64,000 nucleotides of DNA from Martelella sp. NC20 (GTDB lineage: Bacteria > Pseudomonadota > Alphaproteobacteria > Rhizobiales > Rhizobiaceae), in contig NZ_CP054861.1 in assembly GCF_013459645.1 (NCBI RefSeq), forward strand, positions 4,142,001-4,206,000. The letters are read 5' to 3'. Made by a program: the position numbers and the translations under genes. Below, piece after piece: positions 43,423 to 64,000 of this stretch. Position 1 is the stretch's first letter. Each line of letters opens with the position of its first letter. The notes beneath the pieces are model-generated. The model did no database searches. It had not been told where the DNA came from and saw only the letters and a program-made list of their open reading frames with translations.

Positions 43423-43472
43423 TGGTCGGAGTGGAGAGATTCGAACTCCCGACCCTCTGGTCCCAAACCGGA
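43423..43472 (-). other. tRNA-Pro(TGG) 3' fragment, putative attachment site
   Basis: On the minus strand the sequence ends CACTCCGACCA (acceptor 3' strand plus CCA), preceded by an intact T arm (GGGAG-TTCGAAT-CTCTC) and an anticodon loop TTTGGGA (anticodon TGG) with the CCAGA 3' stem. The 5' side of the anticodon stem already has a mismatch (TCCGG) and no D arm or 5' acceptor strand follows. So this is only the 3' half of a tRNA, as left at the distal end of elements that integrate into tRNA genes. The element would lie at higher coordinates. Confidence 0.75.
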
Positions 43473-43953
43473 GAAAAGTAGGCTCATTTCCGAGAAATCA
43501 GGACCTTCTTGCATAAACGTTACGAGAACAACTGGAGAACTTTCATGTTGCGCACCCACACTGCTCTCACAGATTTCCTTCTATGGGCATTAGTGCAGCG
43601 CTCATGAGAGGTCACCCAGTCGCACCTGCGCCACTCGGAGTAAAATGCGCGTGGAGCGCACACATACGGTCATTATAAAATTGATTTAATTATATCTTTT
43701 ATGATTTTCGGGACTTAGCGACACATTTTGTTACACGTTCCGTTACTCATGGACCGGCAATCTCAGGCGAGTAGATAGCTGCACATTCCGGACACGATAA
43801 CCATCAGTTCGCCATGTCGTCGGCATTGTTGACCCGAAGATCCCTCGCGCCGTGCTTCATTCGGCGCCAATAGGCCAACCGAAAGTGTTCGGTCCATCCA
43901 CGCTAAACCCGTACCGCAAAATCACGCCTTAGGAACAAACCCAAGGTTCAGTA
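43473..43953. other. Gene-free AT-richer stretch next to the tRNA fragment
   Basis: About 480 bp with no convincing open frame and visibly lower GC (for example 43670-43740, ATTGATTTAATTATATC). The base composition differs from murB on the left. No integrase gene is recognised. Confidence 0.6.
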
Positions 43954-45039
43954 TCAAAAGTAGAACCGCGAGGGCCTTGCTCCCTCAAGTTCCTCTGCTC
44001 GTGAGCCATACAGAATTTCCTGCGCGGCGAGATCGGCCCAGACCGGCCCCCAGCCGATACCGCCGTGGGAGACGGCAAAGTAGAAACCGTCCAGCCAGGG
44101 CAGGAAGCCAATTACCGGCCCACCCGGTGGTATCGCGCGAATTCCGACTCGCATCGCCGATGGCTCCAGACCTTCGAGGGCCGGGATCGCTTTCGCGACA
44201 TCCGCCAGCATTTTTCCTCCGAAGGCACCGTTCTTGCCATGGCTTACGGTCAGCCCCTCACCGCGCCAGTGTATCGCCGCGCCATGGTCGCGGTCCGGCC
44301 GTAACAGCCAATTTGCGCCGTTGATCACATGGCGAGGGAACGGCAACCGCCCCGCCCCCGCATAGAGCATCACACCAGGCACAAGCTCCAGTGGAATGGC
44401 AAGCCCGGCCATTGCGGCGATATGCGTCGCGTGGCTGCCGGCGGCATTGACCACGGCATCAGCGCAAACCCGCGATCCGTCCTCAAGAAACAGGACATTG
44501 GCCCCGGCCCGGTCACGCTCGAACGCCGCGACGGCGCTGCCGATCAGCAATTCGCCGCCGCTGAGGGTGAAAACTCGAATCAGTTGCTCGATCATGGCCG
44601 GCGCGTCGACCCAACCCGACCGCAGTTCGAAAGCGACGCGCTCGCCCTCCGGCAGGCGAAGCTGCGGCTCCAGGTCACGCGATTCCTCGGGTGAAAGAAC
44701 CTCGATCTGAGCTCCCGCCTCCCTGCTGAGGGCAACCGTCTTCTCGAAATCCGGCACAGCGCTTTCGACGGTCAGCGTACCAGACCAGTCGAGCCAGTCG
44801 CCGCCCAGTTCCTCCGCCAGACGGTCAAAGCGGGCATTGACGGAGAGGCGCAACTGGCGGCGGCCAGGCGATTCCGGCCAGCTGAGCTGAGGGAACGAGG
44901 AAAGCCAGGAGAAGGATGCACCGCTGGTGCCCGCCCCCGGACTGCTCTTGTCGATCAGGACAACGTCCGCACCGCAATCTCTGAGACGGTAGGCGATGTT
45001 GGCGCCGATCGCGCCGGCTCCAATGATCGCTACCTTCAT
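43954..45039 (-). CDS. FAD-dependent amine/amino-acid oxidoreductase (DAO family)
   Basis: A 361-residue flavoprotein. The dinucleotide-binding GAGAIGANIAYRLRDCGADVVLID is at the start; VNAAGSHATHIAAMAG and the C-terminal YFAVSHGGIGWGPVWADLAAQEI are typical of D-amino acid dehydrogenase and sarcosine oxidase relatives. Likely oxidises a C-N bond of a secondary amine or D-amino acid to an imine; substrate unknown. It is the last gene of the nine-gene operon and overlaps the preceding gene by 4 bases. Confidence 0.88.
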   Translation of the reverse strand: MKVAIIGAGAIGANIAYRLRDCGADVVLIDKSSPGAGTSGASFSWLSSFPQLSWPESPGRRQLRLSVNARFDRLAEELGGDWLDWSGTLTVESAVPDFEKTVALSREAGAQIEVLSPEESRDLEPQLRLPEGERVAFELRSGWVDAPAMIEQLIRVFTLSGGELLIGSAVAAFERDRAGANVLFLEDGSRVCADAVVNAAGSHATHIAAMAGLAIPLELVPGVMLYAGAGRLPFPRHVINGANWLLRPDRDHGAAIHWRGEGLTVSHGKNGAFGGKMLADVAKAIPALEGLEPSAMRVGIRAIPPGGPVIGFLPWLDGFYFAVSHGGIGWGPVWADLAAQEILYGSRAEELEGARPSRFYF

Positions 45040-46148
45040 GGCCGTGACCGGAAGATCTTTGGGGAAAGTTCGTTCACCGATGAGCAGCCGAGGTGGCCGA
45101 GCGTGGTCCAGAACTCGTCCTTCAGGAGGTCGAGCACGCGCTTGACGCCAGCCTCACCATCGGCGGCGAGGCCAAGCGCGCAACTTCGGCCGAGCGCCAC
45201 CGCGTTGGCGCCCAGCGCAAGTGCGGTGGCAATGTCGCTGCCGCGCCGGATGCCGCTGTCGAAGATGATCGGCACGTCGGGGCCGGCCTCCGCGCGGACC
45301 GCTGCGAGCGTGTCGATCGATGCCGGCTCGCGGTCGACCGTCCGACCGCCATAGTTGGACACGTAAAGCCCTTCGGCGCCGGCCGAAAGCGCCGCCCGCG
45401 CATCGGCCTTGCTGGAAATGCCCTTGACGATGCAGGGCAGCGGCGCTTCGGCGATGACGCGGGCGGCCGTTGCCCAGTCCCAACGTGGCTTCGTGAAGTC
45501 CAGAAGTTCGCGCAGCATCGCCTGGTCTGATTTCCCCGGCCCGAAATTCGATGGATTGCCCGCTCCCGGCATCGAGAACCGGTCTTCCATCATCCGCTCG
45601 CGCCACTGGCGGATCGGCGAATAGGTCACGCAGATGCGTTCATAGCCTGCATCCTTGGCGCGGTGCATCATGTCGATGACATCGCTTTCCTCGCCACAGA
45701 ATGTCATCTGGAAGATAACGGCGGCGGGTGATGCCGCGCGCACCTCTTCCAGCGAGTGCCCAGCAGCGACCGGCACCATCTGGCGAATGCCGGCGGCACG
45801 GGCCGCCCGGCCGATGGCGAGCATGCCGTCAGTGTGAAACAACGTCTCTCCACCACCGAAGGGCGCGGTGAAGGCCGGAAAGGAAAGGTCGTAACCCATC
45901 ACACTGGTGCGCGTGTCCGGATTGGAAATGCCGGCAAACAGCGGTGCGTCGAAAAGATAGGCATCGAAGGCCGAAACATTGGCCCGCGCCGTCACCTCAC
46001 CACCGGTCCCGCAATGCAGGTAGTTCCAGACCATGTCCGAAAGATTGCGCCGCGCCGCCGCGTGGATGCCCCTGAGGGAGGCATATTTTTCCCGCGTCGC
46101 ATAGCGGTCGTCGCGGCGGACCTCTTCGTCCTTATTGGTCAAGTTCAT
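45036..46148 (-). CDS. FMN-dependent alpha-hydroxy-acid oxidase homologue with Tyr for catalytic His
   Basis: A 370-residue TIM-barrel flavoprotein of the lactate/glycolate oxidase family. FMN-phosphate motifs PIIFDSGIRRGSDIATALALGANAVALGRS and VKGISSKADARAAL are intact. The signature that holds the base, normally SNHGGRxLD, here reads SNYGGRTVD (Tyr266), so the general-base His is missing while the following Arg is kept. The usual hydride-abstraction mechanism is therefore doubtful, and the reaction may differ. ATG 46148 directly abuts AGGAG, so the TTG two codons later (LTNKDEE) may be the true start. It overlaps both neighbours, so translation is coupled. Confidence 0.82.
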   Translation of the reverse strand: MNLTNKDEEVRRDDRYATREKYASLRGIHAAARRNLSDMVWNYLHCGTGGEVTARANVSAFDAYLFDAPLFAGISNPDTRTSVMGYDLSFPAFTAPFGGGETLFHTDGMLAIGRAARAAGIRQMVPVAAGHSLEEVRAASPAAVIFQMTFCGEESDVIDMMHRAKDAGYERICVTYSPIRQWRERMMEDRFSMPGAGNPSNFGPGKSDQAMLRELLDFTKPRWDWATAARVIAEAPLPCIVKGISSKADARAALSAGAEGLYVSNYGGRTVDREPASIDTLAAVRAEAGPDVPIIFDSGIRRGSDIATALALGANAVALGRSCALGLAADGEAGVKRVLDLLKDEFWTTLGHLGCSSVNELSPKIFRSRP

Positions 46149-47016
46149 CTCCTGTCGGTTGAGAAGCCCGGGCCCGCCGTTCGGCGCGACGGGCAAGGCG
46201 CGCGCGGATGGCGTCGGGATCGGTGGAAGGCGTCGAGGCCAGCAGTTGCTGCGTGTAGGGGTGGGTCGGATTGGCGAAGATCGCATCGCTCGTGCCGCGC
46301 TCGACCACTTCTCCGGAATTCATTACCATCACCTCGTCGGAAATGCGCCGGACCACGCTGAGATCGTGACTGATGAAGACATAGGAGAGGCCGAATTCAC
46401 GCTGGAGGTCGGCAAGCAGATTGAGAACTTTCGCCTGCACCGAGAGGTCAAGCGCACTGACCGGCTCATCGAGGATCAGGATCTTGGGATTGACCATCAG
46501 CGCCCGCGCGATCGCGATACGCTGGCGCTGGCCGCCGGAAAACATGTGCGGATACCGCCCGGCATGCTGGCGCTCGAGGCCGACCCTCTCAAGCATGTCG
46601 CCAACGCGAACGCGTCGTGTCGCGGCATCGAGCGACGTGTTCAGCAGGAGTTCCTGTCCGAGTGCATCGCCGACCTTTTTGCGCGGATTCAGTGATCCGT
46701 AGGGGTTCTGGAAGACAATCCGGACCTTGCGCCTGAGTTCCGACGAAAGATGATGGTGACGGATGTCCACCTGCTCGCCGTCGACAATCAGCTCACCTTC
46801 GGTCAGCGGGTCGATCAGCGTCAGGATACGCCCGAGAGTCGACTTGCCGCAGCCCGTCTCGCCAACCACCGAAAGAGTTGTCCCCTTTCTCAGCTTCAGG
46901 TCAACACCCTTGAGGGCCCTGACGGGCGGCCCGTTGCGAAACACCCTCGAACGTCCCGGATATTCGCGCACCAGGCCGAGCCCTTCGAGAATGACATCTG
47001 ATTTATCGCCGGCCAT
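46132..47016 (-). CDS. Peptide ABC transporter ATPase (DppF/OppF type)
   Basis: Second ATPase of a peptide/nickel-class importer. 294 residues: Walker A GETGCGKSTLGR, signature SGGQRQRIAIARAL, Walker B ILILDEPVSALD, and the C-terminal oligopeptide-transporter extension (THPYTQQLLASTPSTDP). Its ATG overlaps the stop of the first ATPase gene and its 3' end overlaps the FMN oxidase start. Confidence 0.93.
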   Translation of the reverse strand: MAGDKSDVILEGLGLVREYPGRSRVFRNGPPVRALKGVDLKLRKGTTLSVVGETGCGKSTLGRILTLIDPLTEGELIVDGEQVDIRHHHLSSELRRKVRIVFQNPYGSLNPRKKVGDALGQELLLNTSLDAATRRVRVGDMLERVGLERQHAGRYPHMFSGGQRQRIAIARALMVNPKILILDEPVSALDLSVQAKVLNLLADLQREFGLSYVFISHDLSVVRRISDEVMVMNSGEVVERGTSDAIFANPTHPYTQQLLASTPSTDPDAIRARLARRAERRARASQPTGDELDQ

Positions 47017-47834
47017 CAGAAATCCACCCCTGTGAGAGGGCCGCCGGTGCTGCGTTCCGGCAGTGCGGAAAGAAGTGCCCTTGTGTAAGTATCCTGCGGC
47101 GAGACGAACAGCGAAAGCACGTCTGTCTCTTCCCGCTTCCTGCCCTGGTACTGCACGATGACGCGGTCGGCGGTCTCTGCAACCACGCCCATGTCGTGGG
47201 TGATGATGATCAGGCCCATGCCGCTTTGCTCCTGAAGCTCGATCAGAAGATCGAGGATCTGCTTCTGGATGGTGACATCAAGCGCCGTCGTTGGCTCGTC
47301 AGCGATCAGCAGCTTCGGCTGGCAGGCGATCGCCATGGCGATCATCACCCGCTGGCATTGGCCGCCGGACATCTGGTGGGGAAATGCCCGGATCTTTTCC
47401 TCGGGTTCCGGCATGCCGACGGCGCGCAGCAATTGCAGCGTCTTCTCCCGTCGATCATCCCGACCGAGCCCCTGGTGTTTCTTCAATACCTCGCCGATCT
47501 GCAAGCCGACGGTATAGGCAGGGTTCAGCGAGGCTACCGGCTCCTGAAAGATCATCGCGATATCGCGCCCGATGATCTTCCGACGCTCACGCGGCGACAG
47601 GTTGGCGATATCGATGCCGGCGAAGCGGATCACGTCGGCCGCGACAGTCGCCGTATCGGGCAGAAGACCCATGACGGCGAGCATTGCGACCGACTTTCCC
47701 GAGCCGCTTTCACCAACGACTGCCAGAACTTCACCGGCGTCGACGTGGAGATCGATACCCTTGACCGCCATCATCGGTCCGTCGTCGGTTTCGAAACTGA
47801 CCGTGAGGTTGCGGATCTCAAGGAGGTGTCCCAT
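47016..47834 (-). CDS. Peptide ABC transporter ATPase (DppD/OppD type)
   Basis: First ATPase of the importer. 272 residues: [11 protein letters not shown] (Walker A), [14 protein letters not shown] (signature), [12 protein letters not shown] (Walker B), [10 protein letters not shown] (H-loop) and a C-terminal extension [16 protein letters not shown] typical of the peptide class. Start chosen at ATG 47834 (GAGGAGCTGAGC upstream). Confidence 0.93.
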
Positions 47835-47836
47835 GC

Positions 47837-48751
47837 TCAGCTCCTCTTCAGGCGCGGATCGAGCGCGTCGCGCAAGCCATCGCCACACAGATTGATCGAA
47901 ACGACGGTGACCAGGATCGCAATGCCGGGAAAGGTGACCACCCACCATGCCCGCAGGATGAACTCGCGGGCCTCGGCCAGCATGGTGCCCCATTCAGGCG
48001 TCGGCGGCTGCGCACCGAGGCCAAGAAAGCCAAGGGCGGCGGCATCGAGGATGGCGGTGGAGAAGGATAAAGTCGCCTGGACGATCAGCGGCGCCAGGCA
48101 ATTGGGCAGGATGGTTGCGAACATCAGCCGGAGGGCGGATGCCCCCGCAATCCGGTCAGCGACCACATATTCCCGCGTCTTTTCGTTGATTACGCTCGCG
48201 CGGGCAAGCCGGGCGAAATGCGGCTGCAGGACCAGCGCGATGGCGATCATCGCATTGGTGAGCCCCGGCCCCAGGATAGCGACCAGAACAAGCGCGAGCA
48301 GCAGAGACGGAAAGGCGAGGATGATATCCATCATCCGCATGATGGTATTGTCGATCCAGCCGCCGAAATAGCCGGACACGAGCCCGATTGCGATGCCGCC
48401 AACAAGCGCGATGGTCACCACCATGGCGCCGATCAGCAGCGAATAGCGGGCGCCGAAGATCAGCCGCGAAAGCATGTCGCGACCGACGGCATCCGTGCCG
48501 AGCGGGAATGCAAGCTGCCCGCCGGTCTCCCAGAACGGCGGCAGGAGCCGGCTGTCGCGAAACTGATGGGTCGGATCATAGGGCGCAAGCACCGGCGCCA
48601 GGAGCGCAAGCACAATCAGGACAACGATGACGACGAGGCCGATCAAAGCGCCGCGATTGCGACGAAAATCACGCCAGAAGGCCCTGAATGCGGCCCGGCC
48701 GGTGCCTGCTTCGGACGTATCCGACCTGATCGGTGCGAGCGGTTCAGCCAT
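47837..48751 (-). CDS. Peptide ABC transporter permease (DppC type)
   Basis: 304-residue inner-membrane permease. N-terminal conserved FWRDFRRNRGALIGLVVIVVLIVLALLAPVLAPYDP, LGTDAVGRDMLSRLIFGARYSLLIG and EAA-like loop are those of DppC/OppC. Start chosen at ATG 48751 with AAGGATCCGTC upstream; it overlaps dppB-like by 8 bases. Confidence 0.93.
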   Translation of the reverse strand: MAEPLAPIRSDTSEAGTGRAAFRAFWRDFRRNRGALIGLVVIVVLIVLALLAPVLAPYDPTHQFRDSRLLPPFWETGGQLAFPLGTDAVGRDMLSRLIFGARYSLLIGAMVVTIALVGGIAIGLVSGYFGGWIDNTIMRMMDIILAFPSLLLALVLVAILGPGLTNAMIAIALVLQPHFARLARASVINEKTREYVVADRIAGASALRLMFATILPNCLAPLIVQATLSFSTAILDAAALGFLGLGAQPPTPEWGTMLAEAREFILRAWWVVTFPGIAILVTVVSINLCGDGLRDALDPRLKRS

Positions 48752-49751
48752 GACGGATCCTTGGGTTGATGACGGCATAGAGAAGATCGACAATCAGGTT
48801 CACGACCATGACCACGACTGCGATGACCAGCAGTCCGCCCTGGACCACCGGGTAGTCCCGCTTGGAGATGGAATCGACGATCCACTTGCCGATACCGGGC
48901 CATGAGAAGATGGTTTCGGTCAGGATTGCGCCCGCCATCAGTGACCCGACCTGAAGACCGATGACGGTGACCACAGGGATCAGCGCGTTGCGCAGGGCAT
49001 GACGGCCGACAATCAGCGCCGGTCCCAAGCCCTTGGCGCGGGCGGTGCGCACATAGTCTTCGCTCAGAACCTCAAGCATCGCCGAACGTGACTGACGGGC
49101 AATCACCGCCATCGGGATCGTGGCGAGCACAATCGTTGGCAGTATCAGATGCGAAACCGCCGAACGAAAGGCTCCGGGCTGGCCAGAAAGCAGGCTGTCG
49201 ATCAGCATGAACCCGGTCCGCTGCGGAAAGTAGTATTCAAGTCCGATCCGGCCGGAAACCGGCGTCCAGCCAAGCGTGCCGGAGAAGAAGATGATCATCA
49301 GAAGTCCCCACCAGAAGATCGGCATCGAATAACCAATCAGGGCGGTGGTCATGGAAATCTGCTCAAACCAGCTTCCGCGCTTAACGGCGGCAAAAACACC
49401 GAGCGGCAGGCCGATGACGATCGCAAGAAACATGGCAGAGAGACCAAGTTCCACTGTAGCGGGAAAGAAGACCAGGAAATCTCCGGCTACGGGCCGGTGC
49501 GTCACGAGCGAAGTGCCGAGGTTTCCGTGAAAAAGATCGTTCAGATACGAGAGATATTGCTGCCATATGGGTCGATCAAAACCGAATTGCCTCATCAGCT
49601 CGGCGTGACGTTCCGGCGTCATCCCGCGCTCGCCCGCCATCAGCATGATCGGATCGCCGGGCAGCACCCGGACAAAGCCGAAGGCGACGATGGTGATTCC
49701 GAAAAAGGTCGGTATCAGCACCAGAAGCTTTCCAACGAGATAGCGCAGCAA
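48744..49751 (-). CDS. Peptide ABC transporter permease (DppB type)
   Basis: 335-residue permease with the DppB start YLVGKLLVLIPTFFGITIVAFGFVRVLPGDPI and a late EDYVRTARAKGLGPALIVGRHALRNALIPVVTVIGLQVG (the EAA region). Six membrane segments are visible. Part of the same operon after RidA. Confidence 0.93.
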   Translation of the reverse strand: MLRYLVGKLLVLIPTFFGITIVAFGFVRVLPGDPIMLMAGERGMTPERHAELMRQFGFDRPIWQQYLSYLNDLFHGNLGTSLVTHRPVAGDFLVFFPATVELGLSAMFLAIVIGLPLGVFAAVKRGSWFEQISMTTALIGYSMPIFWWGLLMIIFFSGTLGWTPVSGRIGLEYYFPQRTGFMLIDSLLSGQPGAFRSAVSHLILPTIVLATIPMAVIARQSRSAMLEVLSEDYVRTARAKGLGPALIVGRHALRNALIPVVTVIGLQVGSLMAGAILTETIFSWPGIGKWIVDSISKRDYPVVQGGLLVIAVVVMVVNLIVDLLYAVINPRIRHG

Positions 49752-49813
49752 GAGACGATCCTTTCAAAGAGCCGGATGGCGGATACCCCGCCACCCGGCC
49801 AGATGCCATGCGG

Positions 49814-50164
49814 TCAGTCGGCTGCCGCCGTGATCACGATCTCGACAAGACGACGCGGGTCGCCCAGATCAGCGCCGCCGATTGCCGCGCGCGACGGCAG
49901 GTCGGCTTCGTTCAGCCACTCCGTCCAGGCTTCGGTCATCGCGGCCTTGCCCGACATGTCGGAGAGATAGACGCGGGCGTGCAGCAGCCGGGACTTGTCG
50001 CTGCCCACTTGCGCCAGCAGCGCGTCGAGCTTTGCGCAGATCTCTGCGGTCTGCCCCTTCATGTCGAGGCTCAGATCGGTGGCCGCGTGGCCGGACGCGT
50101 AGAGCACACCATTATGGACGACCCCGCCATGCAGGTGGGGACGGGAATTCAAGCGTTTGATCAT
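49814..50164 (-). CDS. RidA-family protein (Rid/YjgF)
   Basis: 116-residue small trimeric-type protein. RidA members hydrolyse reactive enamine/imine intermediates to 2-keto acids and ammonia. HNGVLYASGHAATDLSLDMKGQTAEICAKLDALLAQVG and the closing PRRLVEIVITAA are family features; the usual catalytic Arg-containing LVEI-E/V-A end is present. Its placement between two parts of an oxidase/transporter operon suggests it clears the imine made by the FAD oxidases. Confidence 0.88.
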   Translation of the reverse strand: MIKRLNSRPHLHGGVVHNGVLYASGHAATDLSLDMKGQTAEICAKLDALLAQVGSDKSRLLHARVYLSDMSGKAAMTEAWTEWLNEADLPSRAAIGGADLGDPRRLVEIVITAAAD

Positions 50165-50193
50165 TGTCTTTCCTTGGAAGTTGCCGCCGCCCC

Positions 50194-51297
50194 TCAGGCG
50201 GCGGGATGGTAGGGCTCAAGCGGCACCTCCGCCGCCTCCCCCGTAGCGATGCGGGCCAGTTGGCGGCCGGCATAGGGACCGATCGTCAGACCGGCAGCCC
50301 CGAGGCCATTGCCGAGGACGAGTCCCTCGATACCGGGAACCGGGCCAAGGATCGGACGGAATTCCGGCGGCGCCGGGCGGAAGCCGATCCGTGTTTCGAT
50401 GAGGGTCGCATCGGCGAGGCCCGGAGCATAACGCAGCGCAGCGGTCAGAACCTCGTGCTGACCCTCGCAGGTGGTGCGATAGTCGAAGCCCTTGCCATCC
50501 TCGCGCGTGGCGCCGACCACAACCCGGCTGTCATCGAAGGCGAGCAGGTAGTGGCTCGCCATCGGCAGCAGCACCGACCAGCGCGACGTGTCCGCGCCCT
50601 TCATGCCAAAATGCAGGATCTGGCCCCGCTGCGGCTTCACCGGATGGATGAGCCCGAGCGGGGCGAGGATCTGCGATGCCCAGGCACCCGCCGTGACGAT
50701 GATCTGATCCGAAGGAATGGACTGGCCACGCCCGTCAAGCACCAGCGCCCGGCTTTCCTCAAGTTTCAGCGTCGCCAGATCGCTGACATAGGTGGCGCCG
50801 AGCTTGATGGCCGCCCGCACCATTGCCGGGGCCAGTTGCCGGGCATTCACACGCGCACCGCCCGGAACATAGAAAGCCTTGAACGCCTTGTTGATCGGCG
50901 GAAAATGCGTCTGCGCCTGAGCCGGCGTGATCTCTTCAAAGCCGCCGGATTCCGGTGCATCGGCCGTGCGCCGCGCAAGCCGCTCGCCGGCGGCGTCATA
51001 TTCGGCGGGATCTTCAGCCGTCACCAGCGCGCCGACCCTGCGATAGCCGACATCGGTCTCGCCTCTCTCCGCAAGCCCGGAAACAAGTTCTTCGTAGTAG
51101 CGGGCTCCCGCGGCGTACATCTTGTACCACTCGGGTTCATCCGCCTTGGTGGCCCAGGGGCAGACGATGCCCGCGCCTGCAAGCGTCGCCTTGCCCTGGT
51201 GTTCCTGATCGACGATGGTGACGTCATGGCCGGCAAGAGCCAGATGGTAGGCGGTGCTGGCGCCGAGAATACCGGCGCCAATGACTGTTACCTTCAT
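50194..51297 (-). CDS. D-amino acid dehydrogenase-like FAD oxidoreductase
   Basis: 367-residue DAO-family flavoprotein. GAGILGASTAYHLALAGHDVTIVD binds the FAD; VTAGAWASQI, GQILHFGMKG, and the end RPILGPVPGIEGLVLGNGLGAAGLTIGPYAGRQLA match D-amino acid dehydrogenases (DadA-like). Predicted to oxidise a D-amino acid or related amine. It overlaps the substrate-binding-protein gene by 4 bases. Confidence 0.9.
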   Translation of the reverse strand: MKVTVIGAGILGASTAYHLALAGHDVTIVDQEHQGKATLAGAGIVCPWATKADEPEWYKMYAAGARYYEELVSGLAERGETDVGYRRVGALVTAEDPAEYDAAGERLARRTADAPESGGFEEITPAQAQTHFPPINKAFKAFYVPGGARVNARQLAPAMVRAAIKLGATYVSDLATLKLEESRALVLDGRGQSIPSDQIIVTAGAWASQILAPLGLIHPVKPQRGQILHFGMKGADTSRWSVLLPMASHYLLAFDDSRVVVGATREDGKGFDYRTTCEGQHEVLTAALRYAPGLADATLIETRIGFRPAPPEFRPILGPVPGIEGLVLGNGLGAAGLTIGPYAGRQLARIATGEAAEVPLEPYHPAA

Positions 51298-56689: not shown

Positions 56690-56782
56690 TGTTCAGTTCC
56701 TCCTTCTGCTTTGTTCCGGCCGCGGAGTGTTTCCCATGTCACGGCCGGATAGGGTTCCTCATATTCTGAAAAGGGGCAGTTG

Positions 56783-57184
56783 CTATTGCAGCAACCGTTG
56801 CTGCCGCTGCTGAATTCTCTGGGCGAGCGCAGGATCATTGTTGGCCGCCTGAAAGATCCTGTTATAAGCGCTGACATCAAGGTCATTGGCCTGCAGAGCC
56901 GCCACGAGCTCTTCCTCCTGGTTTTCCCTGATTTCCTGGACCTGGGCCTCGCTTTGCGCGCTGCTGATCCGAGGCTCCCATTTGGCCAGGATTTGCTGGA
57001 TTTCAATCGATGCCGCGGCGAAGCTGTCAATCGCACCCTGATCGATTGCGGGCGAGCCCTGCGAGCCGGAAGGCGCCGGGGCTGGCGCCTGGGTTTGCTG
57101 TGCAAAGACGGCCGTGGAAGACATCGAGAATGCGGCAACGGCGATCATGGATGCGGCGAGTTTTCTCTGGAATGGGTAGGTCAT
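56783..57184 (-). CDS. DUF4168 secreted protein
   Basis: 133 residues: signal peptide ending in TAVFA, then a helical DUF4168-like domain (AIDSFAAASIEIQQILAKWEPRI, LVAALQANDLDVSAYNRIFQAANNDPALAQRI). Function unknown; family members are short periplasmic proteins. Its start follows AAGGACGAC and is preceded by an ECF-type promoter match facing away from the sigma factor gene. Confidence 0.8.
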   Translation of the reverse strand: MTYPFQRKLAASMIAVAAFSMSSTAVFAQQTQAPAPAPSGSQGSPAIDQGAIDSFAAASIEIQQILAKWEPRISSAQSEAQVQEIRENQEEELVAALQANDLDVSAYNRIFQAANNDPALAQRIQQRQQRLLQ

Positions 57185-57268
57185 GTCGTCCTTCTTTCAA
57201 TTTGCAACAATGATACCAGGCAGCATGTCGTCGCGGGTTGACTGATTTGCCATCATGGCAACACAACA

Positions 57269-57294
57269 GACGAAGGCAGGCGATGATTGGTTCC
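57269..57294 (-). promoter_or_regulatory. ECF-type promoter for the DUF4168 gene
   Basis: On the minus strand GGAAC (57290-57294) is followed after exactly 17 bases by CGTC (57269-57272). This matches the one upstream of the ECF sigma gene in motif and spacing. Confidence 0.55.
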
Positions 57295-57316
57295 ATTCTC
57301 TTTTTGGCTTTTTTTG

Positions 57317-57342
57317 GGAACTTTTTTCTGTCCGGACCCGTC
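57317..57342 (+). promoter_or_regulatory. ECF-type autoregulatory promoter of the sigma factor gene
   Basis: GGAAC (57317-57321), 17 bases, then CGTC (57339-57342), 36 bp upstream of the sigma factor start. GGAAC/CGTC is the usual form of ECF-recognised -35/-10 elements. Together with the facing copy at 57269-57294 it suggests that the sigma factor controls itself and the DUF4168 gene. Confidence 0.55.
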
Positions 57343-57377
57343 AGTAGCTGTAGTGACTGAATGTCGGGATGAGAAAT

Positions 57378-57893
57378 ATGAGCGATGACCTGCGGTGGAT
57401 GATCGAGAGACAGATACCGCATCTGCGGCGATATGCTTTCGCATTGACCCGGGATCAGGACGAAGCCGACGATCTCGTTCAGGATACCCTGGAACGCGCT
57501 CTGAGGAAGTGGCGCCTGTGGGGGCGCAAGGGACGTTTGCGATCCTGGCTGTTTCGGATTCTCTACCGGACCTATATTGATCGCGTCCGAACGCAGAAAC
57601 CCGGCTCTTCGTCTTATGATCAGGAAGCGATCGACAGGGTCGCGGTGCAGTTGCCTGATCAGGAGGATCGGGTTGAATGCATCAGCATAGCAGCGGCGCT
57701 CGACCGCCTCCCTGCCGACCAGCGTGTAATCATACTCCTCGTCGCTCTTGATGGAATGGCCTATGACGAGGTTGCCGAGTTGTTGGATGTGCCTGTTGGC
57801 ACAGTACGATCAAGGCTTTCCAGAGGGCGGGCCGCCTTGCGCGAAAACCGTTCCCGATCCCCGAAAACGACCTTGCTGAGGCGCGTGAAATGA
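57378..57893 (+). CDS. ECF sigma factor
   Basis: 171-residue RpoE-like sigma factor: region 2 (HLRRYAFALTRDQDEADDLVQDTLERALRKW) and region 4 (LPADQRVIILLVALDGMAYDEVAELLDVPVGTVRSRLSRGRAAL) with a short linker. Start at ATG 57378 (an in-frame ATG three codons upstream is possible). It overlaps the anti-sigma gene by 4 bases. Confidence 0.93.
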   Translation: MSDDLRWMIERQIPHLRRYAFALTRDQDEADDLVQDTLERALRKWRLWGRKGRLRSWLFRILYRTYIDRVRTQKPGSSSYDQEAIDRVAVQLPDQEDRVECISIAAALDRLPADQRVIILLVALDGMAYDEVAELLDVPVGTVRSRLSRGRAALRENRSRSPKTTLLRRVK

Positions 57894-58741
57894 ATTCCAG
57901 ATCAGACAGGATACAGGAACTCGATCTCCTGGCATTCGCTGACGGGTTGCTTGATGACGACCCTGAACGGAAGGCCGCCGTGGAGTCCTTCCTGAATTCC
58001 AATCCATCGGCACGGGAATTCGTCGAGGAGGTGCGCCGGCAGAACGATCTTCTCCGCCAGGTTTGCCTCAACCATAAGGTGGAGCCGGTACCCGCCCGGC
58101 TGCGTGCAGCAGTCTGGAACAGGCAAGTCCGCACCGGCGCAAATCTTGCTAGGGCGGCCTCACTGGCTGTCGCAGTGGCTGGCGCAGGTCTGCTCGGCTA
58201 CTTCTATGATGAATTCCGGCCTCATCGAGCGTCGCTACCTTCCTCGTTCATGAATGCTGTCACGTTATCGGAAAATTCCATCTCCCCGCATCCGGTATCG
58301 ACGGGAACGGCTCAGGCGGGCCCGCTAGAAAATCGGCTCTGGCTCGCATTTCCCACGCCCGATCTCTCATCTGAAGGGTACCGCCTCGTATCACGAGAAG
58401 AACCAACACCTTCGCAGGAGGGCGTCGTTCGTCTGACCTATCGCAGTGCGAACGGGAAAACCCTGAAGATCTTCATGCAGCCTTCGCAGGACATGGTCAG
58501 AAGCCGGACAGAGGTCAACAAAAGTGGCGACACCACAGCGCACTTCATGAGCGTCGGCCCCATGACGATCGCCTTGACGACCGATGCTGAGGATCTTGAT
58601 GCGGATCGCATCGTAAATACGGTGGAGGCCTCAATCAAAGGGCTGCACTTTACAAAGCCGGAATCAACCATCGCCGCCTCGGTTGACACCCCCCTGAGCC
58701 CCGCATCTTCTGATTTCGTGGCACCCACGTTGGAAAACTAG
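57890..58741 (+). CDS. Membrane anti-sigma factor
   Basis: 283 residues. An N-terminal cytoplasmic part (LLAFADGLLDDDPERKAAVESFL, typical anti-sigma helix) is followed by one membrane segment (ASLAVAVAGAGLLGYFY, about 92-108) and a periplasmic domain. No zinc-binding HxxxCxxC motif is seen. ATGA overlap with the sigma gene and this layout make it the cognate anti-sigma factor. The signal it senses is unknown. Confidence 0.85.
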   Translation: MNSRSDRIQELDLLAFADGLLDDDPERKAAVESFLNSNPSAREFVEEVRRQNDLLRQVCLNHKVEPVPARLRAAVWNRQVRTGANLARAASLAVAVAGAGLLGYFYDEFRPHRASLPSSFMNAVTLSENSISPHPVSTGTAQAGPLENRLWLAFPTPDLSSEGYRLVSREEPTPSQEGVVRLTYRSANGKTLKIFMQPSQDMVRSRTEVNKSGDTTAHFMSVGPMTIALTTDAEDLDADRIVNTVEASIKGLHFTKPESTIAASVDTPLSPASSDFVAPTLEN

Positions 58742-59059
58742 ACGGGCTATCCGGATAGGCGCCGCAACGACGTCGTAATGTCTGGATGGCACCCGCCAGA
58801 ATGTTGCTGTCTAGGTCTTGAAGGGATGTGAACTGTCAACCCCGTCGTTATGATATTCATCTACCTGAAATTTCTAGCAACCAAACACAAGCTTCTCCCG
58901 CATGGTTGATAACAAAGGGGTCGAAAACGGATTGTCAGGTCGCTCCGGCATTCGCGCAAGAGCGGTCATTGTCGACCGTGAAGCGACTATTGAAGCCAGG
59001 AATCCTTGGGAAAATCTGTCGCAAGGTCCCCTGCATGATTAGAGGTGGCTCAGGAAATC
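58742..59059. other. Gene-free stretch before the IS3 element
   Basis: 318 bp with only short frames lacking ribosome sites; nothing is recognised. Confidence 0.5.
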
Positions 59060-59103
59060 TGGACAGCGGGGATAAGTGGAATTTCTGCCTGACTTCGGCT
59101 TAG

Positions 59104-59436
59104 ATGCCGGGAACAGGAGATACCATGACGAGACGACCGCGCCGAAACCATAGCCCGGCTTTCAAGGCAAAGGTGGCGCTCGCCGCCATCCGAGGCGAAC
59201 AGACGCTGGTGGAGTTGTCCCAGCAGTTTGATGTGCACGCCAACCAGATCAAGCAGTGGAAAGACCAGCTCCTTGAGGGAGCGACGGGTGTTTTCGGTGA
59301 TGAAGCGAAGGCGGAACCGGCGGGTCCGACCATCGACGTCAAAACGCTGCACGCTAAAATCGGGGAGCTGACACTGGAGAACGATTTTTTATCCGGTGCG
59401 CTCGGCAAGGCGGGATTGCTGGGGGACAAGAAATGA
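59104..59436 (+). CDS. IS3 transposase orfA
   Basis: 110 residues (or 103 from the ATG at 59125, MTRRPRRNHSPAFKAKV). Helix-turn-helix transposase_8 domain (SPAFKAKVALAAIRGEQTLVELSQQFDVHANQIKQWKDQLL) and leucine-zipper-like region LHAKIGELTLENDFL. Overlaps orfB by 4 bases, typical of -1 frameshift IS3 elements. Confidence 0.9.
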   Translation: MPGTGDTMTRRPRRNHSPAFKAKVALAAIRGEQTLVELSQQFDVHANQIKQWKDQLLEGATGVFGDEAKAEPAGPTIDVKTLHAKIGELTLENDFLSGALGKAGLLGDKK

Positions 59437-60263
59437 TCGATCGCGAGCACAAGCTATCCGTGGTGCGCCAGGCGAAGCTTCTCGGCTTCAGCCGTGGCAG
59501 CGTCTACTATTCTCCACGTCCGGTGCCTGATGGCGACCTTGCCCTGATGCGGCGGATCGATGAACTGCATCTCGACTACCCGTTCGCGGGAAGTCGGATG
59601 TTGCAAGGGCTCTTGAAAGGAGAAGGGCTGGAAGCTGGGCGGCTGCACGTCGCCACGCTGATGAAGAAGATGGACATCGAGGCGATCTATCGCCGCCCGA
59701 ACACCTCGAAACCAGCGCCTGGGCACAAAATCTACCCCTATCTTCTGCGCAAGCTGGCGGTCACCAGACCCAACCAGGTCTGGGCGATGGACCTGACCTA
59801 CATCCCCATGGCACGGGGATTCGTCTATCTCTGCGCCGTCGTCGACTGGTTCAGCCGGAGGGTTCTGTCGTGGCGGCTGTCGATCACGATGGAAGCGGCC
59901 TTCTGCATCGAAGCGGTCGAGGAAGCGCTCGCCCGCTATGGCAAGCCCGACATCTTCAACACGGATCAGGGCTCGCAGTTTACCTCGGTGGACTTCACGG
60001 CGGTGCTGAAGAAAGCTGAGATCGCCATCTCGATGGACGGCAAGGGCGCATGGCGCGACAACGTCTTCGTCGAGCGGCTCTGGCGGTCGATCAAATATGA
60101 GGAGGTCTACCTCCACGCCTACAAAACCGTGTCTGAGGCCCGCATCGGCATTGGCCGATATCTGAACTTTTACAACACCAGACGCCCACATTCATCCCTT
60201 GACCGGCAGACGCCGGATCAGGCTTACTTCAACGCGCTGGCACCAATGATGGTGGCGGCATAA
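59433..60263 (+). CDS. IS3 transposase orfB
   Basis: 276-residue integrase-core DDE protein: HTH_21 helices, first Asp in WAMDLTYIPMARGFVYLCAVVDWFSR, second in FNTDQGSQFTS, and the Glu in FVERLWRSIKYEEVYLHAY. No internal stop; could be active. Confidence 0.92.
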   Translation: MIDREHKLSVVRQAKLLGFSRGSVYYSPRPVPDGDLALMRRIDELHLDYPFAGSRMLQGLLKGEGLEAGRLHVATLMKKMDIEAIYRRPNTSKPAPGHKIYPYLLRKLAVTRPNQVWAMDLTYIPMARGFVYLCAVVDWFSRRVLSWRLSITMEAAFCIEAVEEALARYGKPDIFNTDQGSQFTSVDFTAVLKKAEIAISMDGKGAWRDNVFVERLWRSIKYEEVYLHAYKTVSEARIGIGRYLNFYNTRRPHSSLDRQTPDQAYFNALAPMMVAA

Positions 60264-60305
60264 TCGAGGCGGAAATCCACTTAACGAAACGCTCGAAACT
60301 GTTCA

Positions 60306-60839
60306 GACAAACCGAGCCAGCTCTGACGCCGACAGGGATTCTCATGCCGGAGATCTGGAGACATCGCTCATGCTCCATCTATTTCCCGACACGGTGCGAG
60401 CCATACCCCCGCGTGAAGAAACTGGCCAGGCGATGTTTCCCTGGGCGACGGGCGACCTGCTGACGGCGGAGCGGGCAACGCTGTATGCATCGATGTGCGA
60501 CCGGACCGGCGGGAGCGGCGTTGATGGCGACCCGGCACTCGCGTCCGTCGAGCGGGGTGCAGCGATCACCTCCCTCGTCGTCGACGCGCTCGCAGATCTA
60601 GCCCTCAGCCTCAAGCGAGCCGGATGAATCCGGCCATACCGGAATCTACGGCCCAACCGAAAAAGGCCAGACAAATCATTCCCTGACTGCGACCAGGGTC
60701 TATTGGAATCGCTTGATGGCAGGCGATCGCCCGTCGGCAGTCAATACATCAATACAAATGACCTGGCGCCCCGAGCAAATGCCGGATGTGCCAGGCCGAA
60801 ATCGCGCAACCGAGGCGAACTGGCTGACTTACCGTTCGG
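60306..60839. other. Stretch between the IS3 element and YkgB
   Basis: 534 bp. One open frame at 60370-60627 (85 codons, starts MLHLFPDTVRAIPP) has no recognised domain or clear ribosome site, so it is listed separately with low confidence; the rest (60628-60839) shows nothing. Confidence 0.5.
60370..60627 (+). CDS. Doubtful small hypothetical protein
   Basis: 85 codons, MLHLFPDTVRAIPPREETGQ to LSLKRAG. No domain, signal or homologue is recognised. The start lacks a good ribosome site. It may be a remnant cut by the IS3 insertion. Confidence 0.25.
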   Translation: MLHLFPDTVRAIPPREETGQAMFPWATGDLLTAERATLYASMCDRTGGSGVDGDPALASVERGAAITSLVVDALADLALSLKRAG

Positions 60840-61531
60840 TTACAAACTGCTGGCGGAGGAGTCCCGCATGGACGCAAGCAAGAGAACGAGCGATGCGGCG
60901 AGCAGCACTAGAGTCTGCCAGGTTCAAATCGAACCAGACAGACTCTAGATTTATTTGTTTTCGTTTGTCTTTTCGGGAAAACCGGATTCCATTTTTCCCT
61001 GACAAACTCTAGATCCTTGAGCAGGAACTGTCCGACAGGAGCGGAGATTGCCGGGAAGCCGCCCGCTGCCGGCTCGGCGACGCCGGGTGTGCTGAGGAGA
61101 AACAAAAGGGTAATGACGTATGTCACGCATGACATCGCAGCGCCGATCACCGAGGCGAATGGACTGAACGCGCCCACGATCAACGCCGCAGCGGTTGACA
61201 GTTCCAGGACGCCGATGACGTAGCTCGCGCCCTGTACGCCCAGGAGTGCGTTGAGCCAACTTAGGATCGGGCTGTGCTGGATAAACGGCGCGATGCCGTT
61301 TGCCTCGTAACCCGTGAACTTCATGCCGCCAAACCACAGGAAGACGACGACGAGTGCCCAACGCAGCAGCGCCAGCGGCTCGTAGGATCCGGTTGATCGC
61401 TCGGCGACACGCAGGTTCGAGAACCTGCGTGTCCACGCGGCCGAGGGGGTGCCGCCTGCCGGATCGGCTGTTCCGGCAAGGCTGCGGCTCCGCGGTTCGG
61501 CCGCCTCTCTCATCCATTCATCTGCAGGCAT
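60840..61531 (-). pseudogene. YkgB/DUF417 membrane protein interrupted by a miniature repeat
   Basis: DUF417 membrane protein (ALVVVFLWFGGMKFTGYEANGIAPFIQHSP, LGVQGASYVIGVLELSTAAALIVG). The reading frame runs into the repeat element at 60909-61011 and ends in the foreign tail EFVREKWNPVFPKRQ..., stop at 60908. Removing the 99-bp element plus one TA copy joins LLKDL to VLLAASLVLLLASMRDSSASSL and a TAA stop at 60840-60842, the expected last helix, in frame. The current product lacks that helix. The start is taken as ATG 61531 (MPADEW). Last gene of the leftward SDR/hydrolase operon. Confidence 0.85.
60909..61011. repeat. Miniature palindromic repeat element, copy 2
   Basis: 99 bp between two TA dinucleotides. 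It has an internal hairpin (GAGTCTG..AGGTTC/GAACC..CAGACTC), a T-rich spacer, AAAACCGGATTCCATTTTT, and an outer end GACAAACTC. Ends GAGTCTG and GAGTTTG form the inverted repeat. Same plan as copy 1 at 38557-38643. Inserted into the YkgB gene with TA duplication. Confidence 0.85.
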
Positions 61532-61595
61532 TTCCAATGCTCCAGTTCCAGACTGTGGAGGCGCAGTTTGCGCCCCCGTGCTTTGGGGTGACGGT

Positions 61596-62351
61596 TCACT
61601 CAAGAGCCATTGCGGACGCGATGATCGCATCGGCGACGACCTCTGGATGGCTCAACATCACGACGTGGCTGGACGGAACCCTGACGACGTCGGCATGGGC
61701 CACGCTGGCCATCTGTTCCTGCAGCGCGGGCGGGATCATGCGATCGTCCTCGGTGATCACCGTGCGGACCGGTTTGTCATGCCATGCCGCGTGCGTCACC
61801 TTCGCGTCTATGCAGTTGGCATTCCACGGACCTTGCGTGATCGCTACCAGTTCGGCCTCCGCCGCCGGGAGGTCCTGGGCGAAGTTCTTGCGCACCCCCT
61901 CCTCCGACAGGGTCAGATAGCCGCCCTCGTCCTTGCGCAGAAACGGTGCGTAGGGGGCGGGCGGCAGATCGGCAGTCATGCTGGTGATCGACTGGCCGGA
62001 GTCCGGCGCAAAGGCCGCCACGTAGACGAGCGATTTGACCTTGAGGTCGTTACCAGCCTCAGTAATCACCACGCCTGCCCAGCTGTGACCGACCAGGACG
62101 ACTGGCCCGTCAATCTGGTCGATGGCCCGGCGTGTAGCGTCGACATCAGCCTCAAGCGAGGAAAGCGGGTTCTGCACCGCGACCACGCCAAGGCCCCTCT
62201 TGCGCAGAAGCGGGATCACCTTCGACCAGCTCGACCCGTCGGCGAACGCGCCGTGGACGAGGACAACGGTTGGCTCGGGAGTCTGCGCCGATGCGACGGA
62301 CGTGGTAGAGATCAGCGTGGCAAGCGCGAGACCTGCGATGAACTTGTTCAT
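61596..62351 (-). CDS. Exported alpha/beta hydrolase
   Basis: 251 residues with signal peptide (FIAGLALATLISTTSVASA). Hydrolase fold: VLVHGAFADGSSW (oxyanion), nucleophile Ser in VLVGHSWAGVV, acid in ITEDDRMIP, and His in VPSSHVVMLSHPE. Probable periplasmic esterase/hydrolase; substrate unknown. Same direction as the SDR and YkgB genes. Confidence 0.88.
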   Translation of the reverse strand: MNKFIAGLALATLISTTSVASAQTPEPTVVLVHGAFADGSSWSKVIPLLRKRGLGVVAVQNPLSSLEADVDATRRAIDQIDGPVVLVGHSWAGVVITEAGNDLKVKSLVYVAAFAPDSGQSITSMTADLPPAPYAPFLRKDEGGYLTLSEEGVRKNFAQDLPAAEAELVAITQGPWNANCIDAKVTHAAWHDKPVRTVITEDDRMIPPALQEQMASVAHADVVRVPSSHVVMLSHPEVVADAIIASAMALE

Positions 62352-62400
62352 TTCGAGATTCCTTTCATATAGATGCCTACGGCCTCACTGGCCGCGGCCG

Positions 62401-63294
62401 TTAGCGTGAGGGTAAGGTGTCGTCGGAGGGATTTACCTGCCCGCGGAAGGCGCCGACCTCGCCTGTCTGCGGGAAGTTCGTGGAATTGCTCAGTTCGCGC
62501 CATCGGAGGACCTCGTCCAGCCTCGCGCGATCCGCCGTCTCGAGGGCTTCCGAGACGTCCCGGCCCAAAGGCAGGCGGAACGGCGGCACGTCCATTGCGG
62601 GGACCTGAAGGATGACCTGCGCGGCCCGCAGCGGGTCTCCAGGCTGGTGCCCGTCGAAGGCTCGCTGCATCCGGGCCGCCGCACCCACGACGGCGTCGTA
62701 TTCCGGGCGCCCCTCGTCAAGCGTGGTCGAGTCGTCGGCAAAGTTGGTTCGGAAACCACCGGGCTCGATCACCGTGACCTTGACACCGATCAGCGCCATC
62801 TCGGCCGCGAGCACTTCGGAAAATCCTTCGACGCCCCATTTCGCGGCCGAGTAAGGCGCGCGGCCAGGCGCGCCGATGCGACCACCGACCGACGAGAACT
62901 GGATGATGTGGCCGCTGCGCTGTGCCCGCATGACCGGGATCGCCGCCTTGCACAGGATGATCGTACCGAACAGGTTCGTTTCGATCTGCCGGCGGAACTC
63001 GTCGAGCGATGTGTCCTCGATCGAATTGACGTTGCCATAGCCGGCATTGTTGACGAGGACGTCGAGCCCGCCGACGCTGTCCCGGGCGGCGGCCACCGCG
63101 GCCTGCGCGGCGTCCGGATCGGTGACGTCCAGCGCGGCGACCCGAACGGCGTCACCGTAACGCGCCGGAAAATCTGCCAGCAGGTCGGGATCCCGCGCCG
63201 TCGCGACCAGCGCGTGACCTGCGGCCAGTACGGTCTCGGACAGAGCGCGCCCGATGCCGCTGGAGCATCCCGTGATGAGCCAACTTTTTCGCAT
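62401..63294 (-). CDS. Short-chain dehydrogenase/reductase
   Basis: 297 residues: TGCSSGIGRALSETVLAAGH (NAD(P)-binding TGxxxGIG), VNNAGYG, catalytic Ser in QFSSVGGRIG and YSAAK (Tyr-x3-Lys). A complete classical SDR. Start chosen at ATG 63294 (GGAAGGGACATCGGAG upstream); the frame is open 77 codons farther into the P460 gene. Confidence 0.9.
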   Translation of the reverse strand: MRKSWLITGCSSGIGRALSETVLAAGHALVATARDPDLLADFPARYGDAVRVAALDVTDPDAAQAAVAAARDSVGGLDVLVNNAGYGNVNSIEDTSLDEFRRQIETNLFGTIILCKAAIPVMRAQRSGHIIQFSSVGGRIGAPGRAPYSAAKWGVEGFSEVLAAEMALIGVKVTVIEPGGFRTNFADDSTTLDEGRPEYDAVVGAAARMQRAFDGHQPGDPLRAAQVILQVPAMDVPPFRLPLGRDVSEALETADRARLDEVLRWRELSNSTNFPQTGEVGAFRGQVNPSDDTLPSR

Positions 63295-63317
63295 CTCCGA
63301 TGTCCCTTCCGATGTTG

Positions 63318-63823
63318 CTAGGGGGCGAACCGGGTGAAGACGTAGTCGTGATCGCTCACGTTGGGTTCGTGACAGGCGAAGCAGGTCTCGTGCTGCGCCC
63401 TCTGTCGACCGGCTTTCCATCGACGAAGCGCCCGAAGCCCCAGCCGCCGGAGTCGGGGTAGCGCCGGGTATCCTTGACCATGACCTGCACGGTGGTCGCC
63501 GGTCCGGGAACGGAGGCCGGAGCAAACTCGGGCGACGGGACGCGTTTCCAGGCGAGCTTCACGAGGACAGTTCCGTCCGGGAAAGGCAGCGTCCCGGCGC
63601 GATACGCCTCGACGGCCACGGCGTTCCCGACAACAGCGCGAAGCTCGTCGAGCGGCGCGGCCTCCTCGGCGGGAGCGATCAGCTCCCACCTCCGGTAGTC
63701 GCCGGGGAGCGTGACGCCGTAGATCGGCGAGGCGAGATCATCCTCGTCCGCAGCCGCGATGGCGAGGCCGAGCATCGACGGTCCGACGATCGCCGCGAAG
63801 AATGCGAGATGAGACGGGCGCAC
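63318..63823 (-). pseudogene. Cytochrome P460-family protein, frameshifted before the haem motif
   Basis: The main frame (GTG at 63823, after GAGGAGAAGATCG) encodes a signal peptide (LAFFAAIVGPSMLGLAIAAA) and P460-like GVTLPGDYRRWELIAP, PFPDGTVLVKLAWKR, TRRYPDSGGWGFGRFVDGKPVD. The haem-binding end QHETCFACHEPNVSDHDYVFTRF lies in the -1 frame, so one base was lost (or two gained) near 63400-63410. In the shifted frame it ends at the TAG 63318-63320. As written the product lacks CxxCH. Confidence 0.75.
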
Positions 63824-63836
63824 CGATCTTCTCCTC

Positions 63837-64000
63837 TCAGAGCCTGTCGGCGTCGAGCACAGCCCGCGCGAAGGCCGCGGGGGCCTCCTGCGGCAGGTTG
63901 TGTCCGATCCCACCCGTGATCGTGCGGTGCTCGTACTTTCCCGAGAATAATTTGGCGTAGGCATTCGGCTCGGGATGCGGTGCGCCATTGGCGTCACCTT
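63837..64000 (-). CDS. Alpha/beta hydrolase, C-terminal end (cut by window edge)
   Basis: The last ~53 codons of a leftward gene: ...PNAYAKLFSGKYEHRTITGGIGHNLPQEAPAAFARAVLDADRL, stop at 63837-63839. GGIGHNLPQEAPAAFARAV is the catalytic-His region of alpha/beta hydrolases of the haloalkane dehalogenase/epoxide hydrolase type. The stop is 14 bp before the P460 start, so it is in the same operon. Confidence 0.65.
   Translation of the reverse strand, partial: GDANGAPHPEPNAYAKLFSGKYEHRTITGGIGHNLPQEAPAAFARAVLDADRL

Follow-up and report, generated by a model that had tools for sequence, protein, structure and literature searches.

Two genomic islands on the chromosome of Martelella sp. NC20 (G000), one in a transfer RNA (tRNA) gene for proline, tRNA-Pro(TGG), and one in tRNA-Ser(GCT), have probably exchanged their far ends. 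An inversion of ~0.98 Mb, caused by recombination between copies of a phage-derived gene module in the two islands, is the likely explanation for a tRNA-Pro fragment found beside murB in the stretch of DNA analyzed here. This window comprises 64,000 nucleotides (contig C1, 4142001-4206000) and was compared with the rest of the genome and with a set of 13 Martelella genomes (NC20 and 12 congeners). Positions up to 64,000 refer to the window and seven-digit positions to contig C1 of NC20, unless another genome is named.

The fragment at 43423-43472 on the minus strand consists of the CCA end, T arm, variable loop and TGG anticodon loop, lacking the D arm and the 5' acceptor strand. A first-pass annotation made from the sequence alone had described it correctly, except that exact identity between the two copies compared extends over 47 nt (43423-43469) and not 50. 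Neither ARAGORN nor Rfam at its gathering score calls a tRNA anywhere in the window. A 45-mer pattern from the anticodon loop to the CCA end has exactly two sites in the 6.1-Mb genome at ≤3 mismatches (none for the reversed-pattern control): the window fragment and an intact tRNA-Pro at C1:3313731-3313807 on the plus strand, whose 45-mer occupies 3313763-3313807. A tRNA fragment of this kind is usually taken to mean that an island begins there and that the intact tRNA lies at its opposite end, and both the intact tRNA-Pro and an integrase had been predicted beyond position 64000. The whole-genome pattern search rules out an intact tRNA-Pro to the right; the sole intact copy is 872 kb to the left, in opposite orientation, and an integrase gene, int1, adjoins it. 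The first-pass annotation had been ready to give up the island if no intact copy lay to the right, which is literally the case on the contig; we nevertheless keep the island, as the chromosome has apparently undergone an inversion in the meantime.

int1 (3313825-3315084, minus strand) ends 17 bp from the intact tRNA-Pro and encodes a tyrosine integrase according to PHROG (phrog_1, 6e-20), with Pfam PF00589 (Phage_integrase) reaching 21.9 bits, below its cut-off of 27.1. The protein shares 90-91% amino acid identity with one beside tRNA-Pro in Martelella radicis DSM 28101 (G010) and M. mediterranea USBA-857 (G008). More distant relatives (56-71%) lie beside tRNA-Pro(TGG) at four of six further loci, and ARAGORN finds no tRNA-Pro in the examined stretch of the other two. 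At ≤3 mismatches, the 45-mer occurs at least once in all 13 Martelella genomes and twice in four of them, as direct repeats in G008 (43 kb apart) and G010 (44 kb) and as inverted, far-apart copies in G000 and G012.

The sequence directly inside the window fragment, hereafter the window arm (Table 1), resembles the far ends of these islands, with 81/128 identical positions for G008, 82/128 for G010 and 73/106 for the G012 fragment; in each comparison, 0 of 500 shuffles scored as well. By blastn, with the tRNA part included, identity to G008 and G010 is 74% over 164-166 bp. The chromosome-side flanks show no such match to these two genomes (107 and 106 of 500 shuffles as good), and the outside flank of the G012 fragment matches that of the window weakly (6/500 shuffles as good). 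In both G008 and G010, an int1-type integrase and a window-type arm stand at opposite ends within one contig. By this sequence comparison, the window fragment is the distal attachment end (attR type) of a tRNA-Pro island starting at 43473. The integrated element of more than 20 kb that had been proposed to begin at the fragment is thereby borne out, at the length given in Table 1 and with an arm that matches the G008 and G010 far ends.

Two relatives have the same site unbroken. Both G000 ends overlap on the tRNA-Pro of G004 (355853-356478 and 361214-356423), where the empty site (tRNA-Pro at C1:356428-356472, murB match from 356497) leaves 24 bp between the two genes; the first-pass annotation had suggested looking for just such a site in related genomes. 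In G006, 3275001-3314030 corresponds to the window side (plus) and 3315001-3334865 to the upstream side of the intact tRNA (minus), the two being neighbors around tRNA-Pro. The distance from murB to the intact tRNA-Pro is at most 945 bp in G006 and 18.6 kb, on one contig, in G001. Because the tRNA and the murB side of the window adjoin in G004 and G006, the tRNA-Pro site is split in G000. As in other tRNA-integrated islands, an integrase lies beside the intact tRNA, a tRNA fragment marks the far end and a relative has the empty site; unlike in those, the G000 repeats face in opposite directions at a distance of 872 kb, whereas those of G008 and G010 are direct and separated by tens of kb. The G001 gap (G001:C15:70236-88860) has a different sequence beside the tRNA, which resembles the outside flank of the G012 fragment and perhaps belongs to another element family using tRNA-Pro.

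Rightward from the end of the island cargo at 4298554, the order is a phage-type early-gene module, a second integrase gene, int3, and a 5' fragment of tRNA-Ser, with int3 and the fragment at 4.3034-4.3045 Mb. int3 (4303408-4304505, plus strand) stops one base before the fragment, a 42-nt copy of the 5' half of tRNA-Ser(GCT) with one mismatch (4304507-4304548, minus strand). The intact tRNA-Ser at 3352986 (plus strand) is the only exact match in the genome and the only intact copy found at ≤3 mismatches in the 5' half. It is inverted relative to the fragment, 951 kb away, and closes the int1-side segment on the right. The 170 bp preceding the tRNA-Ser fragment match the 5' flanks of tRNA-Ser genes in G001 (142/169), G006 (143/167) and G002 (98/142), with 0 of 500 shuffles as good in each case, and the intact tRNA-Ser of G000 has a 5' side that matches none of these three. 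The arm on that side (3352815-3352985) matches the far arm of an int3-type element in G004 (118/166; 0/500 shuffles); on contig C6 of that genome, an int3 relative (85% amino acid identity) stands at one end and an arm of this type at the other.

By its gene listing, read by eye, the G004:C6 element looks like a complete prophage with the int3 relative, 50 kb long between tRNA-Ser 5' repeats. At the intact tRNA-Ser of NC20 (3352815-3353075), the 5' half and the upstream region are element-borne, with the native 5' end left 951 kb away. On contig C1 of G004, the counterparts of two NC20 sequences, one to the right of the tRNA-Ser fragment (NC20 4315954 on) and one to the right of the intact tRNA-Ser (NC20 3372397 on), are separated by 12.4 kb; this place was not used as an unbroken tRNA-Ser site, as the tRNA-Ser copies of G004 are elsewhere. 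At E ≤ 1e-60, int3 has five relatives among 297 genomes of the family, its own genome included.

Judged by these sequences, the cognate arm of int1 is the window arm and that of int3 is the one at 3352815-3352985; in G000 these partners are exchanged. It is because the integrase-arm pairings in other Martelella species differ from those in G000 that we read the two islands as having swapped far ends. The integrase that does lie at the right-hand end, int3, belongs to the tRNA-Ser island and not, as had been expected of an integrase on that side, to the tRNA-Pro island.

The order and orientation of integrases and attachment (att) sites would also fit exactly a true bipartite element, i.e., one circle with two integrases and two attP sites that entered one tRNA gene, after which the second integrase inverted the chromosome site-specifically. 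Inversion across replichores is described for Bradyrhizobium symbiosis integrative and conjugative elements (symICEs) in excerpts of two reports (PMC9174649, PMC9239051). We give this origin a slim chance at best, because in other species each integrase type belongs to an element of its own (int1-type in G008 and G010, int3-type in G004). Furthermore, the duplicated module is placed where homologous recombination requires it, no second genome with the pair is present among the 13 Martelella genomes, and no conjugation gene was found among the 44 Pfam-scanned proteins or frames of the two halves, which represent part of their genes. The scan covered 48 distinct proteins or frames, four of them from other places, and some of the frames are probably not genes. 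Three int3 loci outside the genus (stretches of 7.7-20 kb, two ending at contig ends) have a single module match, of 31% to a 185-amino acid gene, and on account of this sole match in short stretches they decide nothing between the alternatives.

The exchange of far ends is accompanied by inverted homologous copies at both breakpoints (3317819-3320633 and 4303371-4299034; 2.8 kb), as expected of an inversion between integrated elements. A blastn comparison of the halves (3313808-3376000 against 4185423-4325800) yielded no more than four matches, of which two are pieces of the module (Table 1) and the others are the tRNA-Ser pair and 49 bp. The module encodes a CII-like regulator (left copy), a GcrA-like protein, a replication-initiation-like protein and an antiterminator of NusG/RfaH type. 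With PHROG matches to phrog_1, phrog_101, phrog_270 and phrog_6386, the set of integrase, CII-like regulator, replication initiation and antiterminator corresponds to prophage early genes. The antiterminator is complete (196 amino acids) on the half containing the window, and the match ends after residue 104 on the int1 half. Relatives in phage records number five for the antiterminator (28-38% identity), nine for int3 (26-39%) and two, both partial, for int1, so that no close phage source turned up for any of the three in the collection searched. No capsid, tail or terminase genes were recognized by eye among the genes listed for the islands of G000, G008 and G010, part of which were scanned.

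A third copy of the module lies in a third island of this family, at tRNA-Leu(TAG) (3409351; G000:C1:3409351-3442523), with its own integrase (3409568-3410926). Its cargo further right includes imuA-imuB-dnaE2-like genes, named by eye, and uvrD-like and dinB-like genes. This island was ruled out as the partner of the split, since the comparison of the halves gave tRNA-Ser and not tRNA-Leu.

The history that we propose starts from two ordinary islands. Island P would have been inserted by int1 into the 3' part of tRNA-Pro(TGG), with the window fragment as its attR, and island S, with int3 as its integrase, would have resided in tRNA-Ser(GCT). The same phage-derived early module would have lain just inside the integrase in the two of them, including island S, for which this is our supposition. 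With the modules inverted to each other on opposite replichores, homologous recombination between them, presumably in a single step, would have flipped ~0.98 Mb around the terminus. Each island would thus have retained its integrase end and gained the far end of the other, the left product reading tRNA-Pro, int1, module, S cargo and tRNA-Ser, and the right product reading tRNA-Pro fragment (in the window), P cargo, module, int3 and tRNA-Ser 5' fragment. The complete antiterminator would accordingly be that of P and the cut one that of S. A single flip between the modules would restore P at tRNA-Pro and reunite int3 with its cognate arm and with the two parts of tRNA-Ser. The int1 and int3 frames are both open. 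Provided that both integrases are functional, neither island could now be expected to excise alone, as int1 acting on its cognate pair is predicted to invert 872 kb and int3 951 kb.

The geometry of the chromosome is in line with this proposal. Cumulative guanine-cytosine (GC) skew and the polarity of GGGNAGGG, which we take to be the FtsK-guiding motif, both switch at ~3.783 Mb, which marks the terminus; 55 of the 60 GGGNAGGG sites in 3683601-3963600 point toward the switch, as expected. A dif-like site at 3781359 is weak (9/28 mismatches to the dif of E. coli). With the terminus 464 kb from one module and 518 kb from the other, the two are placed near-symmetrically on opposite replichores.

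Skew and GGGNAGGG polarity are no test of the inversion itself, because a terminus-spanning flip leaves both intact, and they would look the same if the chromosome had been misjoined at the module repeats without any inversion. Such an assembly artefact would have its junctions in 2.3-kb repeats of 97.5% identity, a typical site of misjoining. We regard it as very unlikely, given that C1 is a single 5.59-Mb contig of a three-contig genome and that the copies differ by 26 mismatches and three gap openings in 2320 aligned columns, with 1.5 kb missing from one of them; long reads would resolve such copies.

Several observations weigh against the proposed exchange by inversion. On the assembly alone, a misassembly at the 2.3-kb repeat is possible, and none of the available genomes represents an unflipped strain of this species. 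Adjacency of murB and tRNA-Pro is confined to the three congeners with the highest murB identity. In 9 of the 12 congeners, no murB of this type shares a contig with tRNA-Pro at a distance of 20 kb or less; these nine have a less similar murB or none that is clearly of this type, and several have both genes on different contigs. Around tRNA-Ser, the 3' neighbor (3353076-3354176, 1.1 kb) recurs beside the tRNA in one of six congeners compared (G002), and G005 and G007 have other genes 5' of tRNA-Ser beyond the first 66 bp. The int3 element of G004 is phage-like and shows no module protein, for which reason an island with int3 and module has not been seen intact.

The module sequences add a further complication. 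The tRNA-Leu island copy is 92-93% identical to either of the other copies over a long stretch, yet the right-hand copy is 99.4% identical to it over 495 bp where it is ~93% identical to the left-hand copy, and the third copy matches the left-hand one at 99.3% over 147 bp. Because short pieces match the third copy at 99.3-99.4%, the modules are mosaic. No crossover points could be placed inside them. G000 is also separated from G004 and G006 by further rearrangements. Both the mosaic structure and these rearrangements, together with the insertion sequence (IS) elements present in the island, would suit a history in which IS-mediated events or several inversions separated the ends and the similarity of the modules reflects later gene conversion or coincidence. 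This we consider extremely unlikely: the halves have no IS copy in common, the only sequences found to be shared being the module, tRNA-Ser and 49 bp, and one module-module flip would restore both islands together. An interspersed repeat of ~180 bp, matched dozens of times in G001 and G006 and ~20 times in G004, occurs also at a synteny break between G000 and G006 (3583 and 2747 kb, respectively).

G012 has a pair of tRNA-Pro sites of its own (G012:C1:2648255 and 3749560), in which a tRNA-Pro fragment with a window-type arm lies inverted and 1.1 Mb from the intact tRNA-Pro. An int1 remnant in two frames stands beside the intact gene, and the skew and motif switch falls between the two sites at ~3.56-3.62 Mb. 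The pair may represent either a second split or a relic.

Table 1 Features of the window and module copies shared by the two halves (window positions up to 64,000; module copies in contig C1 positions)
Feature	Position	Strand or orientation	Basis or remark
murB, chromosomal neighbor of tRNA-Pro in the unbroken site	42409..43410	+	Pfam MurB_C, FAD_binding_4
tRNA-Pro(TGG) 3' 47 nt, attR copy marking where the tRNA-Pro island ends distally	43423..43469	-	45-mer pattern and copy comparison
Element-side attachment arm, conserved in other Martelella at the far ends of their tRNA-Pro islands	43473..43585		Identity and shuffles
tRNA-Pro island cargo	43473..64000		Runs on to genome position 4298554; 113 kb in total, 20.5 kb in the window
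Accessory operon: flavin adenine dinucleotide (FAD) oxidoreductases, flavin mononucleotide (FMN)-dependent dehydrogenase, oligopeptide-type ABC transporter	43954..52901	-	Pfam
dinB (Y-family polymerase) piece	54128..54955	-	Pfam IMS, IMS_C
IS3-type transposase pair (family presumed)	59104..60263	+	Pfam HTH_Tnp_1, rve
Module piece 1	3317819-3318326 vs 4303371-4302863	inverted	93% over 512 bp
Module piece 2	3318323-3320633 vs 4301329-4299034	inverted	97.5% over 2320 bp

The window changes character at the fragment. To its left, 4145753-4185411 is colinear with G006 in pieces of 73-89% identity, and to its right, Pfam bears out the accessory genes that the first-pass annotation had listed. The AT-richer stretch that it had noted directly after the fragment exists at 43473-43950 (478 bp), where GC is 0.490, a value that 6 of 1271 windows of the same size equal or fall below, compared with 0.611 for 1-43422; it does not extend to the right-hand part overall, since 43473-64000 as a whole has a GC of 0.606 and the island is not AT-rich.

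Among the matches listed for 43473-63472 in the 13 Martelella genomes, two are foreign and ~10 kb long (G001 and G012), neither at this locus; they correspond to a 10-kb copy of the accessory operon (85% identity in G001, 84% in G012) that these 2 of the 12 congeners have at other loci. The other 21 matches of at least 1 kb among those listed, two of them in the genome of NC20 itself, span 1.1-3.6 kb each. Copies of the dinB piece occur elsewhere in these islands of G000 at 4273118-4273871 (85%) and 3441771-3442523 (84%). The transposase pair is one that we take to belong to the IS3 family.

The 3.5-kb stretch 55258-58750, which encodes a sigma factor of extracytoplasmic function (ECF) type, is copied at 87% identity on another replicon of NC20 (C3, 241354-244826) and at 83-84% in G008 and G003. 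A repeat of ~105 bp at 60908-61013 has at least 15 more copies in the genome at 94-98%. Beyond the window, the P cargo includes a two-gene unit at 4279892-4285568 encoding proteins of 1253 and 641 amino acids, the larger with HTH_upst_double_PIN and PIN-TPR-GreABC domains; that it is a defense system is a guess. A 2.2-kb match in G008 to 4288376-4290580 was dropped as shared P cargo, as Pfam identifies an IS91-type transposase beside a Xer-like recombinase. The S cargo encodes a Type I-F CRISPR-Cas system (clustered regularly interspaced short palindromic repeats; 3328602-3340068) with a Cas2-Cas3 fusion found by Pfam and a repeat array. Eight stretches of the array, at spacings that are multiples of 60 bp, have matches (32-43 bp, 86-100%) in this genome at 3.628-3.672 Mb, a region bordered by an integrase (3627273-3627698) and a tRNA at 3627068; perhaps the array holds spacers against a resident prophage there.

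In prophage-mediated inversions, as proposed here, two related integrated elements recombine and the region between them flips; the prophages of Streptococcus pyogenes SSI-1 reportedly exchanged parts by such an inversion. Unlike in those cases, the NC20 elements are cargo islands that contain a phage-type early module and, to the extent examined, no phage structural genes, and their att copies let the swap be read directly. Inversions by recombination between prophages are already known, as stated in an excerpt of PMC6379469. Excerpts of three reports (PMC9174649, PMC9239051, PMC5882170) likewise describe bipartite elements of Bradyrhizobium (tRNA-Val/ybgC) and the tripartite ICE3 of Mesorhizobium, whose segments at separate sites carry integrases at their borders and whose att recombination inverts the chromosome. 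The NC20 segments resemble these in that each has its own integrase and finds its partner att site on the other segment, inverted (872 and 951 kb away). Unlike the symbiosis elements, they show no conjugation or symbiosis gene among the scanned proteins, which are a part of all genes, their integrase types belong to separate elements elsewhere, the module is duplicated, and there is no evidence of transfer as a unit. G000 is a new case of recombination between integrated elements that has a bipartite-ICE topology, and both types of inversion were known before.

For the reading of genomes, this case means that the usual rule for tRNA fragments misplaces the other end of the island by nearly a megabase. 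Two separate att systems have become interlocked, probably through ordinary homologous recombination, into the topology of a polypartite ICE; the excerpted text of PMC9239051 calls the processes that drive variation between monopartite and polypartite symICEs unknown. That the swapped islands now act as one bipartite element is conceivable from their sequence, although we think it unlikely. If they did, int1 would flip 872 kb to leave an empty tRNA-Pro and a fused segment of ~158 kb flanked by tRNA-Ser repeats, int3 could then excise this segment as one circle, and homologous recombination between two ordinary islands would be a route to polypartite integrative elements.

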